A stretch of 64,000 nucleotides of DNA, from positions 115,662 to 179,661 of the forward strand of contig JAABRR010000003.1 of NCBI GenBank assembly GCA_011390785.1. Direction: 5' to 3'. Below, piece by piece: positions 39,806 through 57,899 of this stretch. Every line of letters begins with the position of its first letter. The first letter of the stretch is position 1. The DNA is from Sphingobacteriia bacterium. Its GTDB lineage: Bacteria; Bacteroidota; Bacteroidia; Bacteroidales; UBA7960. The position numbers were made by a program, and so were the translations under genes. The notes under the pieces are model-generated. The model saw nothing but the letters and a program-made list of their open reading frames with translations, ran no database searches and was not told the DNA's origin.

Positions 39806-40035
39806 TAAGCGCCGTTTTGTCTTGTCCTTAATTCCACTATTCTTTCGGGAGGAACAAAGCCCTCACGGGTAACCCGCCCATTCTTGCAAAGAGAAAATAA
39901 GCTCCCAGAAATGCCCCGTCAATAATCCCGTTAAACCAGTATCTAGTAGGAAATTCGGGTGCAAATGCCATAAATCCGTACAATAGTATTACGTAAAATG
40001 CCCGGTCCCTATGGCATAAATGTATAGCAAGCCGG
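39806..40035 (-). pseudogene. Truncated copy of the small membrane protein gene at 51441-51851
   Basis: The sequence 39806-40010 aligns with 51403-51600 at roughly 80% identity, including the bases beyond the stop codon, and then jumps to sequence corresponding to about 51765-51790. An internal deletion and several indels destroy the frame. The flanks 39643-39805 and 40036-40521 hold no gene; ATTACAT (40262-40268) and ATGTAAT (40277-40283) form an inverted repeat upstream of the hybrid sensor gene. Confidence 0.75.
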
Positions 40036-51440: not shown

Positions 51441-51851
51441 TTATTCTTTCGGGAGAAACAAATCTCTCAAGGGTAACCCACCCCTTCGGGCAAACAGGAA
51501 ATAAGCTGCGAGAAAAGCCCCGTCAATAATCCCGGTAAACCAGAATGTAGTAGGAAATTCGGGCACAAAAACCATAAAGCCGTATAATTGTACTATGTAA
51601 AACGCCCTGCCGAAAATGAGACATCCTACCAGGAAAGAGTAACGCCCAATGTTTTGCGATGCCATAAACTGTATCCAGGCAAAACACAGAAAAAAGGAGC
51701 CCAGGAAAACGGTATAAAATGGATCTGTGGCCGGATTGCTGATCATGCGTCCGTTACCAATAGCAAAAATGTAAAGCAAACCAGCTATGGTATCCCATAT
51801 GCCGCTCATAAAAAAGGCAACGGCCAATGGTTTTAAAGATTTGTTGTTCAT
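51441..51851 (-). CDS. Small four-helix membrane protein
   Basis: 136 aa with about four hydrophobic helices (residues 8-28, 45-63, 72-94, 102-121). No named family. Conserved polar residues within helices (GIWDTIAG, AWIQFMASQ) could suggest a small-molecule role. A deleted second copy lies at 39806-40035, so this gene has been duplicated in the genome. It has its own -7 box at 51907-51914. Confidence 0.65.
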   Translation of the reverse strand: MNNKSLKPLAVAFFMSGIWDTIAGLLYIFAIGNGRMISNPATDPFYTVFLGSFFLCFAWIQFMASQNIGRYSFLVGCLIFGRAFYIVQLYGFMVFVPEFPTTFWFTGIIDGAFLAAYFLFARRGGLPLRDLFLPKE

Positions 51852-52048: not shown

Positions 52049-52080
52049 TTTGATTATATTAATTGCAAAGATTAGATTTT
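52049..52080 (+). promoter_or_regulatory. Promoter of the patatin-CHAT-MBL operon
   Basis: TTTG (52049-52052), 20 bp, TAGATTTT (52073-52080): one mismatch from the Bacteroidota consensus, 65 bp before the first start codon. No operator-like repeat nearby, so expression may be constitutive. Confidence 0.55.
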
Positions 52081-52144
52081 AATTGATTAACTTTAAGGTG
52101 GTTATCGATTTCTTACTGAATTGTTAAACCTAAAGCTCTTCACT

Positions 52145-53866
52145 ATGAATGCAAAACTGCCTGAGCAACCCTTCAACACTCTTGCACTTTCATTATCTGG
52201 CGGCGGCTACCGGGCTGCAGCATTTCATCTTGGATCACTCACTTATCTATCATCCTTAACGTGGAAAAGCACCAGCATGCTCGAAAGGGTGCGTGTAATA
52301 TCTACTGTTTCGGGTGGGACTTTTACCGGGGTCTGCTATGCATCAACCCTGGCTGAAAACAAACCACTTATAGATTGCTATCGAAAGCTTTGGCAATTTA
52401 TGACAGATACCGATTTGATAGAAGAAAGTCTTAAAAAATTATCAGATTTTGATCAATGGAACAGCCCTAAAGCCAGAAGTCTTATCAATGCCTTTGCAAT
52501 GGTTTACTTTGAAAAGTTGGAAAACAAAACGTTTTCGCATCTTTTTGATCATCCAACCCATTTGAAAGAACTCATTTTTAATGCAACAGAGTTCAATTAC
52601 GGACTTCCATTCCGTCTTCAAAAGAGCGAGTTGAGCGAACAAGAGTACCGCTATGCCTTTCTGGGCAATCGCCAGGTAAATATGCCGCCACAAGCCATCA
52701 GAGAAATCAGGCTTGCTGATGTTATTGCTGCTTCATCATGCTTCCCAATGGGTTTTGAACCTATCAACTTTCCCACTGATTTCAGACATGAGAACTCTCC
52801 TGTGCTTGATTCACTGAACGAATCATACAAAACCGACCGATGGGGAAACAAATCTACTCTTCCAATCGGACTAATGGATGGTGGAATTGTTGACAACCAG
52901 GGCATTGATAGTGTAATTCAGGCAGAGCAATTGATGAAGAATTATAAGGGAGATAAAAGTAAATTTATTTCTAACGATGAAAAATCCATTGACCTATACA
53001 TCATCAGCGATGTTTCATCTCCCTTCATGAGCGGTTATGTAAAAACGGAAGAAAAGCCATCCAATTTCTGGCGAAGACTAAGCTTCAGAAAGTTTTCTTA
53101 TGTTGGATTGTTGTCATTGCTCATGGCCGTGCTGTTCATTACCCTGGCTATTTACAGCGAAATGAGGGTGCTGATTTTTGTTGCAGGGTTATTCACTGCA
53201 GTATTTCTCCTGACAAGCATCATAAGTTTTTTCCTGTCGCGATTGTTCCGTAAATTCATGAAAATATTTAAAGTGCCTGAATTCTTTGTCAGCCGATTGG
53301 GAGTATTTAGTCGAATGCAGTTCGGAATCTATGAAACCCTGATCAAAAATCGGATAAGCTCTGTCGTATCAATGGTTTCAGAAGTGTTTATGAAGCAGAT
53401 TAGAAGACAACAATATGGCAGGGTTTACAACGAACCAGGCTGGGCCACACGCCTGGTTATGAATGGGATCTACGAATTGTCTCCCCAACACACTGTTTAT
53501 AGAAACAGCAAAAAGGATATTTTGCTGAGCAAAGAACTCAGAAATGTAAGTACACAACTGATGACAACAGCCGAAAAGGCCAGGTCTATGGGTACTACAC
53601 TCTGGTTTACTCCTGACGAGCTTAAAGGTGAAAAGGATAATATGCTCAAAACACTCATTGCCTGTGGGCAGTTTACCGTTTGCTTCAATCTCATTGAATA
53701 CATCGAAAAAACTTTGCTTAACCCTGAAAACAAAACAGAGTATGATGCTTATTCAGATGAACTGAAACTGGAAATCAATACCCTTCATTCCAAAATGCTT
53801 TCTGATTGGAAAGCTTTTAATGCCGACCCCTATTGGCTGGTAAACGAAATTCATCAGGAAAGTTAA
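52145..53866 (+). CDS. Patatin-like phospholipase with transmembrane hairpin (operon gene 1)
   Basis: 573 aa from the ATG at 52145 (a TTG at 52121 is less likely). The N-terminal 290 residues form a patatin domain: oxyanion loop SGGGYRAAAFHLG (18-30), nucleophile Ser 56 in ISTVSGGTF, and the dyad Asp 245 in LMDGGIVDNQG. Two membrane helices follow (about 319-338 and 342-365), then a basic cytoplasmic region of about 200 aa. No signal peptide, so the lipase domain should lie in the cytosol, tethered to the inner membrane. Patatins act as membrane-damaging effectors in several immune systems (for example CapV in CBASS). It is followed after 37 bp by the CHAT gene. Effector role is inferred. Confidence 0.85.
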   Translation: MNAKLPEQPFNTLALSLSGGGYRAAAFHLGSLTYLSSLTWKSTSMLERVRVISTVSGGTFTGVCYASTLAENKPLIDCYRKLWQFMTDTDLIEESLKKLSDFDQWNSPKARSLINAFAMVYFEKLENKTFSHLFDHPTHLKELIFNATEFNYGLPFRLQKSELSEQEYRYAFLGNRQVNMPPQAIREIRLADVIAASSCFPMGFEPINFPTDFRHENSPVLDSLNESYKTDRWGNKSTLPIGLMDGGIVDNQGIDSVIQAEQLMKNYKGDKSKFISNDEKSIDLYIISDVSSPFMSGYVKTEEKPSNFWRRLSFRKFSYVGLLSLLMAVLFITLAIYSEMRVLIFVAGLFTAVFLLTSIISFFLSRLFRKFMKIFKVPEFFVSRLGVFSRMQFGIYETLIKNRISSVVSMVSEVFMKQIRRQQYGRVYNEPGWATRLVMNGIYELSPQHTVYRNSKKDILLSKELRNVSTQLMTTAEKARSMGTTLWFTPDELKGEKDNMLKTLIACGQFTVCFNLIEYIEKTLLNPENKTEYDAYSDELKLEINTLHSKMLSDWKAFNADPYWLVNEIHQES

Positions 53867-53903
53867 GTCACCACCATCAATCCCCAATAAAAAATTGACA
53901 GAC

Positions 53904-56789
53904 ATGGAAGCATTTGAATTCTGGACACAATGGGGCTCCGGACTGAAAGACAGGGAATTTGCCAATGCTCTTACTGCCCTGGGCGTACTTTCTGCAAACT
54001 ACATAAGCAAAGAAATGCAGGGCACTCATATCAGTCCACAAGTTGATAATCAGCAGTTTGAAATACTTGCAAATTCTGCCCTGCAAGCTATTATACAAAA
54101 AGAAGAAAAGTCGGATTTTCCTGTTATCCAATGGGTGTTTCCTGAACCCGATAGTATTATCCAAATTGAACAAAGCCAATTCAGTCTAAAAGAACTACCC
54201 CCCGTGAAATTGGCAAGTATATGGTCTGATATTGCTAATGCAAGACCCACCGAAAGGGAAAAGCCACGCCTGAGAATCAGCGTGCAGGATTTTCCACGAA
54301 CAAATACAATAAGGCCCTGGTTCAGGTTGCTTACAGAAGCAGACCCTGACAATACTTCCATCTATATTAATTTTGACACTGAGCATTCTGAAATCCATGT
54401 AAAATGGCCAATTCGTCTGGGTTACATCCCCAATAACAGTGCGGAGAAGCCGCTGTCAGAAGCCCATGAGCGCTGGCCATCCAATACCAATTCGCGAATG
54501 TTACCAATAGGCCGTGACAATGATAATGCCGATATTCTTGTTTTTGATGGAAGCCTTAAAGCACTCAAAAAGTCACTGAATGAACTTACGGTCCCCATGA
54601 AGTGCAACCTCATAATGATCAGAGGAGCTGAAGACAATCACTCTCCTGATTTTTTCCGGCAATTGAACGACATTACCCTAATGACCCGTGCCAATGGCTG
54701 GGCTTTTATCAGCGAAACCTTCGGTGATGATTCTCTTGCCAACATGCTTAATGATATTGTTGATGAACTGTGTCATAACGTGGCACTGGATTTTGTTGTT
54801 TCTACCATTTTTGCCAATGCAGAATCTGAAAATCCGGATCCGATTATCTTTTTGGGCAAAAAGCTGGCAATGTTTCGCCTGAATCACATGGTGGATAAGG
54901 TAATAAAACGACTCGCTGCGCTGCCGTCCGCGGCAAAAATCAATGTTCTGTCAGATACACGCCATCGACTAAATATTCATGAAAGCGCTGCCTTTGAAGA
55001 TGCTGATGACTTGAAATCGGTTCTGGAAGAAAACAGAGAGAAAATGCTATTCATTGCTGAAAGCACGGGTGCTACAGGTATAACCGAGCTAAACGAATTG
55101 CTGGAAGAAGTTGAAATGACACCTGAAGTTGAACAATCCCGGCAAAACAGGTACATTTCTGTCAAAACATTTATAAAGGAAAAAGGTACCTTTCAACCCA
55201 ACAGACGGGCATTTCTGCTCAATGTACCGGCACGCATCACCATGCGAATTGGGCCGTCTGACGAAAACTGGGCTTACCTTCCTACCCCGGTTGATATGAG
55301 CAGACTCCCTGAACAGGAAGATGCATGGAAGCTGAAAGTGGTAATGAGTGACCCCAACCACATTGTTGAACCCCTGATCAGCAACATTAAATTGCCCAAA
55401 GTTGGCCCAAGTACAGAATGTGTATTCCTATTCTCTCCCGTGAACACCATTCCTTTTGAAGGACGTATTACCGTATTGCATCGTGGCCGGGTTATTCAAA
55501 CAGCTATTTTGAAAATGGCTGTTGCCGAGTCTCCGGATCAAATGCCTGAAACCGATCAGCTGGAGCTCTCTGAGCTTATTCCGGTAAGGAATAGCATCAG
55601 CAATCTTGATGATAGACGACAGTTTGATATGGCAATAGTTACCAACCACACTTCAAGCCAGCGACCTGTTCTAACCGGCATATCAAAAGATCATGCCTGG
55701 CTGGCAAATTTGGAAGCCTGCAAGAGCATCACCGAAGAAATCAATATGGCCTTATCGGAAGTGGCATTTTCGGTAGAGGATTACAAGATGGGGTTTGAAT
55801 CAGAAAAAGGGAAGGAACTTCTGACCCGGCTTGTGTTTAGCGGTTGCGAACTGTACAGCGCCATTGTTGAGTCTGAACTTATGCGCCCCACCAACAGGGC
55901 TGATATGGCCAAAATGGAGTATCTGCAGATTGTAAGCACAAAGAATGACTCCGTGATTCCTTTCGAATTTATTTATGACCGGGAAGTTCCCGATGACGAT
56001 GCCACTCTTTGTTCGCACTGGAAAGAAGCGCTCCAGCAAGGGAAATGCCATCCATCGTGCGACAAGAATCAAAGAAAAACCATTTGCCCGATGGGCTTCT
56101 GGGGGCTGAGCAAAGTAATTGAAAGACATGATGTTACACCCGAACTTGCAGATGGAAACTACGAACATTTGCTGCAATCAGAAGCAGTGGGCAACCGGGC
56201 AACACTAAATCTTGCTGCTCCCGGGCTGTTTGCAACCAGTGCCAAAGTTATTAAGCAAGATGCTCAACAGGTAATTCTCAATTTCGAAAAAGCTTTTGGA
56301 ATGCCACCCATCACTGTGGATACCTGGGAAAACTGGGAAACTGAAGTAACAAATCATAAGCCTCTGCTGATCATTGCCCTTACCCACACCGATGGCAAAG
56401 GTGCCAATGCCACGCTGGAAATAGGCAACAAAACCCTGCGGAGCATCCAGATCAGAACATCACATGTAAGGCCTGGCGATCCAGGAGCCTATCCGCTGGT
56501 TGCTTTGCTCGGTTGCGATACCAGTGGCTCGGCCATCGAATATGGTAAATACATACGGCAGTTTCGTCTCAAGGGAGCAAGTGTGGTTATCGGTACTATT
56601 GCTACCGTATTCGGCGGGCATGCAGCCCGGGTGGCCGAAATGCTTATCGATGGCCTGCAGGCAGAAAAAGGCTCTTCCGAACGCCTGGGCGAGATCATGC
56701 GCAAACTAAAACGAAATGCCATCAAAGACGGGCAACTCATGGCCCTGTGCCTGGTTGCTTTTGGAGATGCCGATTGGAAACTCACGTAA
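53904..56789 (+). CDS. CHAT-domain (caspase-like) peptidase, 961 aa (operon gene 2)
   Basis: Start at the ATG at 53904 (MEAFEFWTQWGSG); a TTG three codons upstream is less likely. The C-terminal 300 residues look like a CHAT caspase fold: catalytic His 828 in LLIIALTHTDG and Cys 871 in VALLGCDTSG, followed by GASVVIGTIATVFGGHAARVAE. Before it lies FIYDREVPDDD and a cysteine group (LCSHW ... KCHPSC ... TICPMGFWGLSKVIER), a likely zinc or disulfide element also recalled from other CHAT proteins. The first 600 or so residues match no family I know and presumably sense or regulate. No signal peptide or membrane helix. It sits between patatin and MBL genes with gaps of 37 and 12 bp. Confidence 0.8.
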   Translation: MEAFEFWTQWGSGLKDREFANALTALGVLSANYISKEMQGTHISPQVDNQQFEILANSALQAIIQKEEKSDFPVIQWVFPEPDSIIQIEQSQFSLKELPPVKLASIWSDIANARPTEREKPRLRISVQDFPRTNTIRPWFRLLTEADPDNTSIYINFDTEHSEIHVKWPIRLGYIPNNSAEKPLSEAHERWPSNTNSRMLPIGRDNDNADILVFDGSLKALKKSLNELTVPMKCNLIMIRGAEDNHSPDFFRQLNDITLMTRANGWAFISETFGDDSLANMLNDIVDELCHNVALDFVVSTIFANAESENPDPIIFLGKKLAMFRLNHMVDKVIKRLAALPSAAKINVLSDTRHRLNIHESAAFEDADDLKSVLEENREKMLFIAESTGATGITELNELLEEVEMTPEVEQSRQNRYISVKTFIKEKGTFQPNRRAFLLNVPARITMRIGPSDENWAYLPTPVDMSRLPEQEDAWKLKVVMSDPNHIVEPLISNIKLPKVGPSTECVFLFSPVNTIPFEGRITVLHRGRVIQTAILKMAVAESPDQMPETDQLELSELIPVRNSISNLDDRRQFDMAIVTNHTSSQRPVLTGISKDHAWLANLEACKSITEEINMALSEVAFSVEDYKMGFESEKGKELLTRLVFSGCELYSAIVESELMRPTNRADMAKMEYLQIVSTKNDSVIPFEFIYDREVPDDDATLCSHWKEALQQGKCHPSCDKNQRKTICPMGFWGLSKVIERHDVTPELADGNYEHLLQSEAVGNRATLNLAAPGLFATSAKVIKQDAQQVILNFEKAFGMPPITVDTWENWETEVTNHKPLLIIALTHTDGKGANATLEIGNKTLRSIQIRTSHVRPGDPGAYPLVALLGCDTSGSAIEYGKYIRQFRLKGASVVIGTIATVFGGHAARVAEMLIDGLQAEKGSSERLGEIMRKLKRNAIKDGQLMALCLVAFGDADWKLT

Positions 56790-56801
56790 AACATTTTAAC
56801 C

Positions 56802-57899
56802 ATGAACCCTTTTTTTCGCATTGAAATGCTGCCGGCACAGCAGGGAGATGCCATTTGGATTGAATATGGCACCACAAGAACACGCAGAATCCTTATTGAT
56901 GCCGGCCCCATTGATGCTTTTGATGATGTAGAAGCGAAGCTGAAAACGTTGCCGGATGGAGATAAAAGGGTTGAATTGGTTGTCATTACCCATGTTGATA
57001 ACGACCATATTGAAGGAATGATCCGGCTGTTTGCTGAAAAACGACAAAAATGGCTGATTGCACCCGAGGATATTTGGTTTAACGGCTACCGGCATATGCA
57101 TGAGGCCGGTTTACTGGGCGGTCGGGAAGGAGATTTTCTGAGTGCCTTATTGCACCGTCGGGCATTGAGCCTGTGGAATAAACATTTTAACAACAAAGCT
57201 GTGAGCACATCGCCCCGGCAAGCCCTTCCTGTTATAGAGCTGGCCGATGGGATGAAAATCACGTTGCTCTCCCCCAGTCCCCCAAAGCTGACGAACATGG
57301 CAAAAAAATGGGTCAGGGATGTTGATAAACACGGGCTCAAACCCGGCGATCTGGATGGAGCATGGGATCAATTACTAAATCATACCAAACTGCACCCCAA
57401 AGATGGCATTCTGGGAGGTCCCGCGGGAATAGATGAGGCACTCAGAAAACAACTCAAAACAGACCAATCGGCCGCCAATGGATCGAGCATTGCCTTTCTG
57501 GCGGAGTTTGAAGGAAAAAGTTGCCTGTTTCTGGGAGATGCCCATGCCGCCATCATTGCTAATGCGATACAGACACTCATCCCTGCCGGCGAGCAAAGAC
57601 TTAAGGTAGATGCCGTAAAAGTGTCGCACCACGGAAGCAGAAACAATATTTCGAAAAAGCTGCTGGACCTTATCAATGCCCGGCATTTCCTGGTAAGCAC
57701 CAGTGGGGCCAAATACAAACATCCCAATAAGCCGGCCATCAAAGCAATCATACAGAGTTCGTTGCAGGATCCGGTACTTTGGTTCAATTACAAATCCGAT
57801 TTTACCCGGCCATGGGAAGAAACCTTAAACCCCAATCTTCGCACCTATCAGGCCAGATACCCGCAAAATCCGTCAGGGGGAATTGGTATTGAGTTATAA
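56802..57899 (+). CDS. MBL-fold hydrolase, ComEC-like (operon gene 3)
   Basis: 365 aa metallo-beta-lactamase-fold protein. The metal motif is THVDNDHIEG (His 64, Asp 66, Asp 68, His 69), with the second His of the usual HxHxDH replaced by Asp, as in several ComEC-related proteins. Later ligands are in LFLGDAH and VKVSHHGSRNN, the SHHGS block being typical of the ComEC/RNase-like branch. No signal peptide, unlike ComEC it has no membrane domain. Possible nuclease or phosphodiesterase. Starts 12 bp after the CHAT gene; last gene of the operon. Confidence 0.85.
   Translation: MNPFFRIEMLPAQQGDAIWIEYGTTRTRRILIDAGPIDAFDDVEAKLKTLPDGDKRVELVVITHVDNDHIEGMIRLFAEKRQKWLIAPEDIWFNGYRHMHEAGLLGGREGDFLSALLHRRALSLWNKHFNNKAVSTSPRQALPVIELADGMKITLLSPSPPKLTNMAKKWVRDVDKHGLKPGDLDGAWDQLLNHTKLHPKDGILGGPAGIDEALRKQLKTDQSAANGSSIAFLAEFEGKSCLFLGDAHAAIIANAIQTLIPAGEQRLKVDAVKVSHHGSRNNISKKLLDLINARHFLVSTSGAKYKHPNKPAIKAIIQSSLQDPVLWFNYKSDFTRPWEETLNPNLRTYQARYPQNPSGGIGIEL

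Follow-up and report, generated by a model that had tools for sequence, protein, structure and literature searches.

A patatin, CHAT and MBL gene operon of a Bacteroidales bacterium as a candidate protease-gated cell-suicide system

Introduction

When a predicted protease is encoded between a predicted phospholipase and a predicted nuclease, upon which of its neighbors does it act, and to what end? The question is raised by a three-gene locus of a Sphingobacteriia bacterium (Bacteroidota; Bacteroidales; UBA7960), found in a stretch of 64,000 nucleotides (assembly GCA_011390785.1, contig JAABRR010000003.1, positions 115,662 to 179,661 of the forward strand), hereafter called the window, from whose first letter coordinates are counted. 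An initial annotation described the locus as an undescribed candidate cell-suicide system of a patatin lipase, a CHAT-type protease and a ComEC-like metallo-beta-lactamase (MBL) protein, in which the CHAT protein would activate the patatin and the MBL protein would process a nucleic acid or second messenger. We keep cell suicide as the candidate function but assign the protease another substrate: the locus is probably a protease-gated suicide operon, in which the CHAT protein would cut both gates of the MBL protein, a DNase would be released and the patatin would damage the membrane.

The CHAT and MBL genes form a conserved pair

Open reading frame (ORF) calling places three genes in a row on the + strand, separated, stop to ATG, by 37 bases (53867-53903) and 12 bases (56790-56801), just as annotated. 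These encode a patatin-like phospholipase (52145..53866; 573 aa from ATG, or 581 aa from an alternative TTG start at 52121), a CHAT-fold predicted protease of 961 aa (53904..56789) and a ComEC-like MBL protein of 365 aa (56802..57899) that we predict to be a gated pro-nuclease. The catalytic positions that the annotation had picked out, S56 of the patatin, C871 of the CHAT protein and H64 of the MBL protein, are all conserved.

The 961-aa protein has no match in Pfam, NCBIfam or PADLOC, the Pfam CHAT profile PF12770 misses it in its own genome, and comparison by sequence with solved chains gives no credible relation. Its assignment rests instead on a predicted caspase-like fold with a His-Cys dyad, H828 (56385..56387) and C871 (56514..56516), each present in 47/47 homologs. 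Since this is the combination that characterizes CHAT/separase-type cysteine proteases, the protein is predicted to be one. The fold matches of the CHAT and MBL proteins are among the matches listed, and a family missing from them is not thereby excluded. Within the CHAT protein, residues 1-415 (53904..55148) are the least conserved, with a mean pairwise identity of 22-30% as against 42-47% for the rest, and a search with residues 1-420 returned five proteins, all of the CHAT protein's own family. Because low conservation is expected of a recognition region, this fast-evolving part is a candidate sensor. It is followed by a region that is rich in beta strands in the model (residues 417-540; 55152..55523) and precedes the CHAT part. 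A cluster of four cysteines (56010..56087), C703 (47/47), C715 (44/47), C719 (45/47) and C728 (47/47), may be a metal site. Judged by hydropathy only, neither the CHAT nor the MBL protein has a hydrophobic segment.

CHAT homologs form 212 clusters, query included. A profile made from 47 of the 120 listed homologs led to 50 loci in a collection with one genome per species; all were recovered through the CHAT gene, so that the sample covers MBL genes in the company of CHAT. They span Bacteroidota, Pseudomonadota, Thermodesulfobacteriota, Myxococcota, Chrysiogenota, Verrucomicrobiota, Actinomycetota and one archaeon. We observed an MBL gene after the CHAT gene in each of the 47 loci with enough contig, the contig ending before the MBL position in the other three (L022, L031, L045), and the same pair recurs in four plasmid loci (L052, L053, L064, L128). 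The CHAT ORF is split in L032 and L039. In Virgisporangium ochraceum (L050, 9035-13210) the CHAT and MBL parts make up one ORF of 1391 aa, which places the protease and its predicted substrate in a single chain. Pairwise identities of the CHAT and MBL proteins go together closely (r 0.946; 42 loci, 861 pairs), a figure that includes the relatedness of the organisms. Accumulibacter, Thauera and other Rhodocyclales, which are familiar from activated sludge, contribute many of the loci (L013-L029).

The MBL protein has two candidate gates

We compared the MBL protein with known families and found that its best PADLOC matches are LmuA (2.7e-72), Avs1a (1.2e-54) and RTasMBL (4.6e-43). NCBIfam gives Avs1a (3.6e-74, although its 249.8 bits fall short of the cut-off of 420) and ComEC (1.1e-10), which bears out the description as ComEC-like. 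In the ComEC-like MBL nuclease domain, the metal motif H64-x-D66-x-D68-H69 (56991..57008) is intact and is invariant in 40 sequences. The protein is about 80 residues longer than ComEC, and the additional length falls in the stretch that holds the two segments modeled with low confidence (predicted local distance difference test score, pLDDT, below 50), residues 102-106 (57105..57119) and 202-225 (57405..57476). Each of these segments contains a Leu-Gly pair. In the first, L105 and G106 are both present in 48/48 relatives; in the second, the pair L204-G205 has a counterpart in 47/48, aligned with it in 37 and one column off in 10.

Tuck et al. (Science 2025, PMC12799240) describe gated MBL pro-nucleases that become active once a partner protease has cut two disordered loops; in one of them, canu (CanABC), the activating protease is a caspase. 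In sequence and in its model, the MBL protein of the window resembles these gated pro-nucleases. Its best matches being to gated nucleases and to the nuclease domain of ComEC, it is more likely a gated DNase than the second-messenger enzyme that had been suggested, with predicted cuts after L105 and L204.

Gate residues differ with the type of partner protease

We compared the gate positions across MBL proteins that have different partner proteases, reading gate 2 by eye. MBL proteins linked to trypsin-like proteases have Ile at both gates in 4/4 cases (L054, L096, L097, L129). Those linked to CHAT proteins have Leu at both in 51/52 (the 48 relatives and the plasmid loci L052, L053, L064 and L128). 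Those of the caspase type have Phe or Tyr at both in 7/9 (L058-L063, L124), the exceptions being Leu/Leu in L056 and Met/Leu in L057; L063 was kept in this group, although beside it we found no caspase gene and just the remnant of a CanB-like gene. The count leaves aside three loci with a caspase gene and no MBL match in the stretch examined (L125, L126, L127), an ABC-3C locus (L055) and one in which no protease was seen (L098). Both gates of a given MBL protein belong to the same class in 64/65 cases. Under permutation, full gate agreement has a probability of 3.9e-5 in the 13 non-CHAT rows and of 0.028 when the nine caspase-type rows are taken alone, with the relatedness of the rows ignored in both. 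In a tree of 59 MBL rows (quick search), the CHAT- and caspase-linked proteins group with each other and separately from five rows, three of them trypsin-linked and two others (SH-aLRT, the Shimodaira-Hasegawa-like approximate likelihood ratio test, 99); a single clade (support 99) takes in 39 of the 46 CHAT-linked rows.

The simplest reading of these sequences is that one partner protease cuts both gates, that the residue before Gly or Ser is the P1 position and that the CHAT protein would cut after Leu. Because the gate residue follows the protease type, we conclude with good confidence that the CHAT protein activates the MBL protein, rather than the patatin, by gate cleavage. In the mechanism that we propose, a phage or phage product would be sensed through the N-terminal region of the CHAT protein, and the triggered protease would cut the downstream MBL protein after the Leu in each of its two predicted disordered gate loops and unleash it as a DNase. 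The patatin would damage the membrane as an exchangeable second arm, and infected cells would shut themselves down. A wider proposal joins this dual executioner, its DNase licensed through a two-lock Leu-Gly gate and its phospholipase swappable, to a general gate code of Ile, Leu or aromatic residues that insulates systems from one another; we offer it tentatively, as less likely than not. If such a code were true, the protease of an orphan nuclease could be read from the nuclease's own sequence, and it would become testable how protease-nuclease pairs move between systems without cross-firing. The comparison also provides a sequence-level prediction of the cut site for an uncharacterized family of CHAT proteins, that of the 212 clusters.

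The phospholipase is an exchangeable arm

The patatin matches PF01734 (E 1.6e-14). At least 90% of 31 homologs keep G19-G21 of the oxyanion loop, the predicted nucleophile S56 in its VSGG elbow (52310..52312) and D245, and for that reason the patatin is probably an active lipase. Hydropathy predicts a transmembrane hairpin (residues 314-332 and 338-368; 53084..53248), in agreement with the membrane tether of the initial annotation. Among the 31, only the window, L001 and L005 have this hairpin, and five others have one hydrophobic segment.

A patatin gene lies upstream of the CHAT gene, on the same strand and within about 550 bases, in 31/46 loci with that side visible, the window included, so that the three families are indeed repeated neighbors, as the annotation would lead one to expect. 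Four of the 15 patatin-less loci have a Tle1-like phospholipase, upstream in L011, L045 and L046 and directly downstream of the MBL gene in L033. Of the others, L007 has a clostripain-type protease downstream, L041 has a caspase-FGE gene downstream and a DUF4384 gene upstream, and L042 has a small upstream protein with three hydrophobic segments. No partner gene was found in the remaining eight (L002, L029, L031, L035, L038, L048, L049, L050; for L031, on the upstream side only). In a CHAT tree of 45 rows, for which L041 is too short, patatin presence takes 8 changes, at least 6 of them forced, as against 12.0 in shuffles, indicating that the patatin was gained or lost several times and yet is partly inherited. 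Since the patatin varies and the MBL gene is constant, we take the protease and the MBL protein as the core and the phospholipase as an arm that can be exchanged.

Several of these loci have further features. L011, L045 and L046 share a longer order of Tle1-like phospholipase, trypsin-like protein, SH3 protein, CHAT and MBL (the contig of L045 ending before the MBL gene), and thus combine proteases of two types. In L040 (13727-14941) and L043 (15104-16306), the patatin-CHAT-MBL operon is followed downstream by a second, divergent patatin on the opposite strand. In the Methanoperedenaceae archaeon (L041, 1411-15227), the CHAT-MBL pair stands behind genes that by eye resemble a contractile tail or injection system and is followed by a caspase-FGE-sulfatase protein. 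Caspase-like ORFs occur within a few kb of the CHAT operon in the Accumulibacter loci L019, L023 and L039 and in L029, there 3 kb upstream. A further locus, L130 (G237:C44, 4822-8119), has co-directional genes for a patatin (473 aa, with a hydrophobic hairpin), an MBL protein (329 aa) and a TIR-like protein (285 aa), the hairpin and TIR assignments being read by eye, and no adjoining protease gene; it is possibly another patatin-MBL system.

Could both effectors be substrates of the protease? The CHAT protein would then open the MBL gates and also release the phospholipase, through a different motif or through binding, to give a dual executioner of DNA and membrane. Such an arrangement would suit the presence of a patatin or Tle1-like phospholipase in 35/46 CHAT-MBL loci and beside 2/8 canu-like plasmid loci (L056-L063). 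In one of these, on a Sinorhizobium americanum plasmid (L056, 3483-8062), the patatin gene is divergent beside a caspase-hypothetical-MBL row, and its product is 43% identical to a CHAT-linked patatin and 25% to that of the window; in the other (L058), a Tle1-like gene adjoins the caspase pair. Phospholipases beside both CHAT and caspase pairs argue for a shared need for a membrane-attacking arm. However, no common cut motif was found in the patatins: an alignment of the homologs revealed no conserved Leu-Gly outside the family's catalytic region. An apparent 90% conservation of such a pair at residue 385 was rejected as a gap artifact, the window alone having it. Moreover, Pfam places the patatins and the Tle1-like proteins in separate families, a difference that suits parallel action more than a single cleavage common to both. 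We therefore regard a second substrate as unlikely, though a serious contender.

Phage defense as the purpose of the operon

We lean toward phage defense as the purpose of the operon. The contrary view is that it serves programmed cell death or an envelope-stress response with a housekeeping trigger, and some results weigh on that side. The flanks of 50 loci minus four near-duplicates, with at most two ORFs of at least 130 aa on each side of the core, comprise 148 ORFs, of which 134 were scanned (ORFs above 900 aa were left out, and a residue limit applied). As a control we used 130 ORFs (123 scanned) from ten arbitrary 20-kb stretches in genomes of the window's phylum. The flanks matched 19 PADLOC families and the control 59 (25 listed); the enrichment near known defense genes that might have been expected was thus not observed, in a test that is weak since the control phylum differs from that of most loci and some high-GC flank ORFs are probably not genes. 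Among the Pfam families of the flanks (25 of 135 listed), most are regulators and metabolic genes. Likewise, no CHAT homolog was found on phages, and of 17 stretches on viral contigs that fit a search pattern none was confirmed. These points count against defense, although not every member of the gated MBL pro-nuclease kind lies in a defense island.

On the other hand, the distribution is very patchy. The system was found in 1/98 relatives, the window's own genome, and in 0/11 genus mates, several of which are incomplete drafts. Across the phylum, 2/395 genomes match, one of them (G276, locus L065) by a weak partial match of 98 model positions (E 2.7e-8) that was dropped. The operon is thus accessory, rather than fixed in a core genome with housekeeping partners. 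Relatives also occur on plasmids, 3/5 plasmid records being typed conjugative, partners are exchanged between loci, and the closest named MBL families are antiphage (PMC12799240). A role outside defense therefore appears rather improbable to us.

The phospholipase might instead be a sensor or regulator of the CHAT protein, for example of membrane state, comparable in place to CanB. The change of partner gene between loci would agree with this, as would the CanB-CanA complex of canu (PMC12799240). Nevertheless, the conserved Ser and Asp of the patatin suggest that lipid hydrolysis is used, and in eight loci no partner gene was found. This role is improbable in our judgment, and we slightly favor a membrane-damaging effector. 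Least credible of all is the activation of the patatin by the CHAT protein, with the MBL protein tuning a nucleic acid or second messenger, given that 15/46 loci have no patatin upstream of CHAT and 47/47 checkable loci have the MBL gene, that the matched Leu-Gly gates are in the MBL protein and not in the patatins, and that the best MBL matches are nucleases.

Surroundings of the operon

Ten proteins of the operon and its neighborhood were scanned, among them an aminotransferase, a SAP/DUF6434 protein and a ferredoxin-nitroreductase. The downstream aminotransferase has only distant paralogs in the genus mates (24-32% identity) and the upstream 136-aa gene (51441-51851) has no match in the 11 other genomes of the genus, which makes these two flanks genome-specific; an empty site was not found in these 11 genomes. 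A second, partial copy of the 136-aa gene lies at 39840-40007 of the window (77% identity over 56 residues). The single promoter of the initial annotation was not recovered: sigma-70-type matches reach chance level only, and the pattern TTTG...TAnnTTTG occurs 4 times in the window as against 4.7 expected, with none at the operon.

Comparison with known systems

Patatin effectors of the CapV type are found in CBASS and related systems, and the likeness of the operon to CBASS is its patatin phospholipase as the likely membrane-damaging arm. No CD-NTase or cyclic-nucleotide synthase was present among the ten proteins scanned. In type III-E CRISPR (Craspase), the Csx29/TPR-CHAT protease has Csx30 as its substrate, whereas here the substrate is a predicted MBL nuclease, and family scans of the neighbors revealed no CRISPR effector adjoining the operon.

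Avs1 (AVAST type 1), HamMAB Hachiman and Lamassu trypsin-MBL have homologous MBL proteins whose gates occupy corresponding positions, 99-100 residues apart (PMC12799240). In these systems a trypsin-like protease is fused to a core defense protein, the gates have Ile and the MBL gene is found upstream. None of these partners adjoins the operon: its scanned neighbors include no trypsin-STAND Avs1b or Avs1c gene of AVAST type 1 and no SMC match (LmuB) of Lamassu.

The nearest relative is canu. In canu (PMC12799240), the gene for a protease of the caspase superfamily lies upstream of that for a ComEC-like MBL protein, and two disordered gates have a conserved Gly; both features are found in the window. 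However, CanA has a caspase (Peptidase_C14) domain and the window protease has no recognizable caspase; hhalign gives probabilities of 0.05% and 0.4% for the CHAT protein against the caspase and CanB-like proteins of seven canu-like plasmid loci, whose canA and canB labels were given by architecture in a set without K. aerogenes sequences. The window operon has no CanB gene and no further gene, its gates have Leu where canu-like loci mostly have Phe or Tyr, and a phospholipase gene is usual in CHAT-MBL loci. The Ig-like fold of canu is C-terminal to the protease domain; the beta-rich region of the CHAT protein is N-terminal to its CHAT part. Two of the caspase-MBL loci, on Bosea and Agrobacterium plasmids (L059, L061), are adjoined by TIR genes, a second caspase, or a CHAT gene and an S8 protease.

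The operon shares with the broader kind of gated MBL pro-nucleases the metal motif, two predicted disordered insertions, a matched cut-site residue and a protease that diverges along with its MBL protein. Since the protease has no recognizable caspase and there is no CanB, the operon is a variant of this gated nuclease-protease kind and not canu. Of the claim that the system is undescribed, one part is lost, a near relative having been described in canu; the main text of PMC12799240 mentions neither CHAT nor patatin. In the open-access literature, we found no description of a CHAT-gated nuclease with a phospholipase in a search that took in that main text and had outside it figure 4A and the supplement, which may already mark CHAT-linked nucleases. 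If our reading is true, a third class of protease, CHAT, the fold of separase and Craspase, would be added to the protease-gated nucleases and would be joined in them to a phospholipase.

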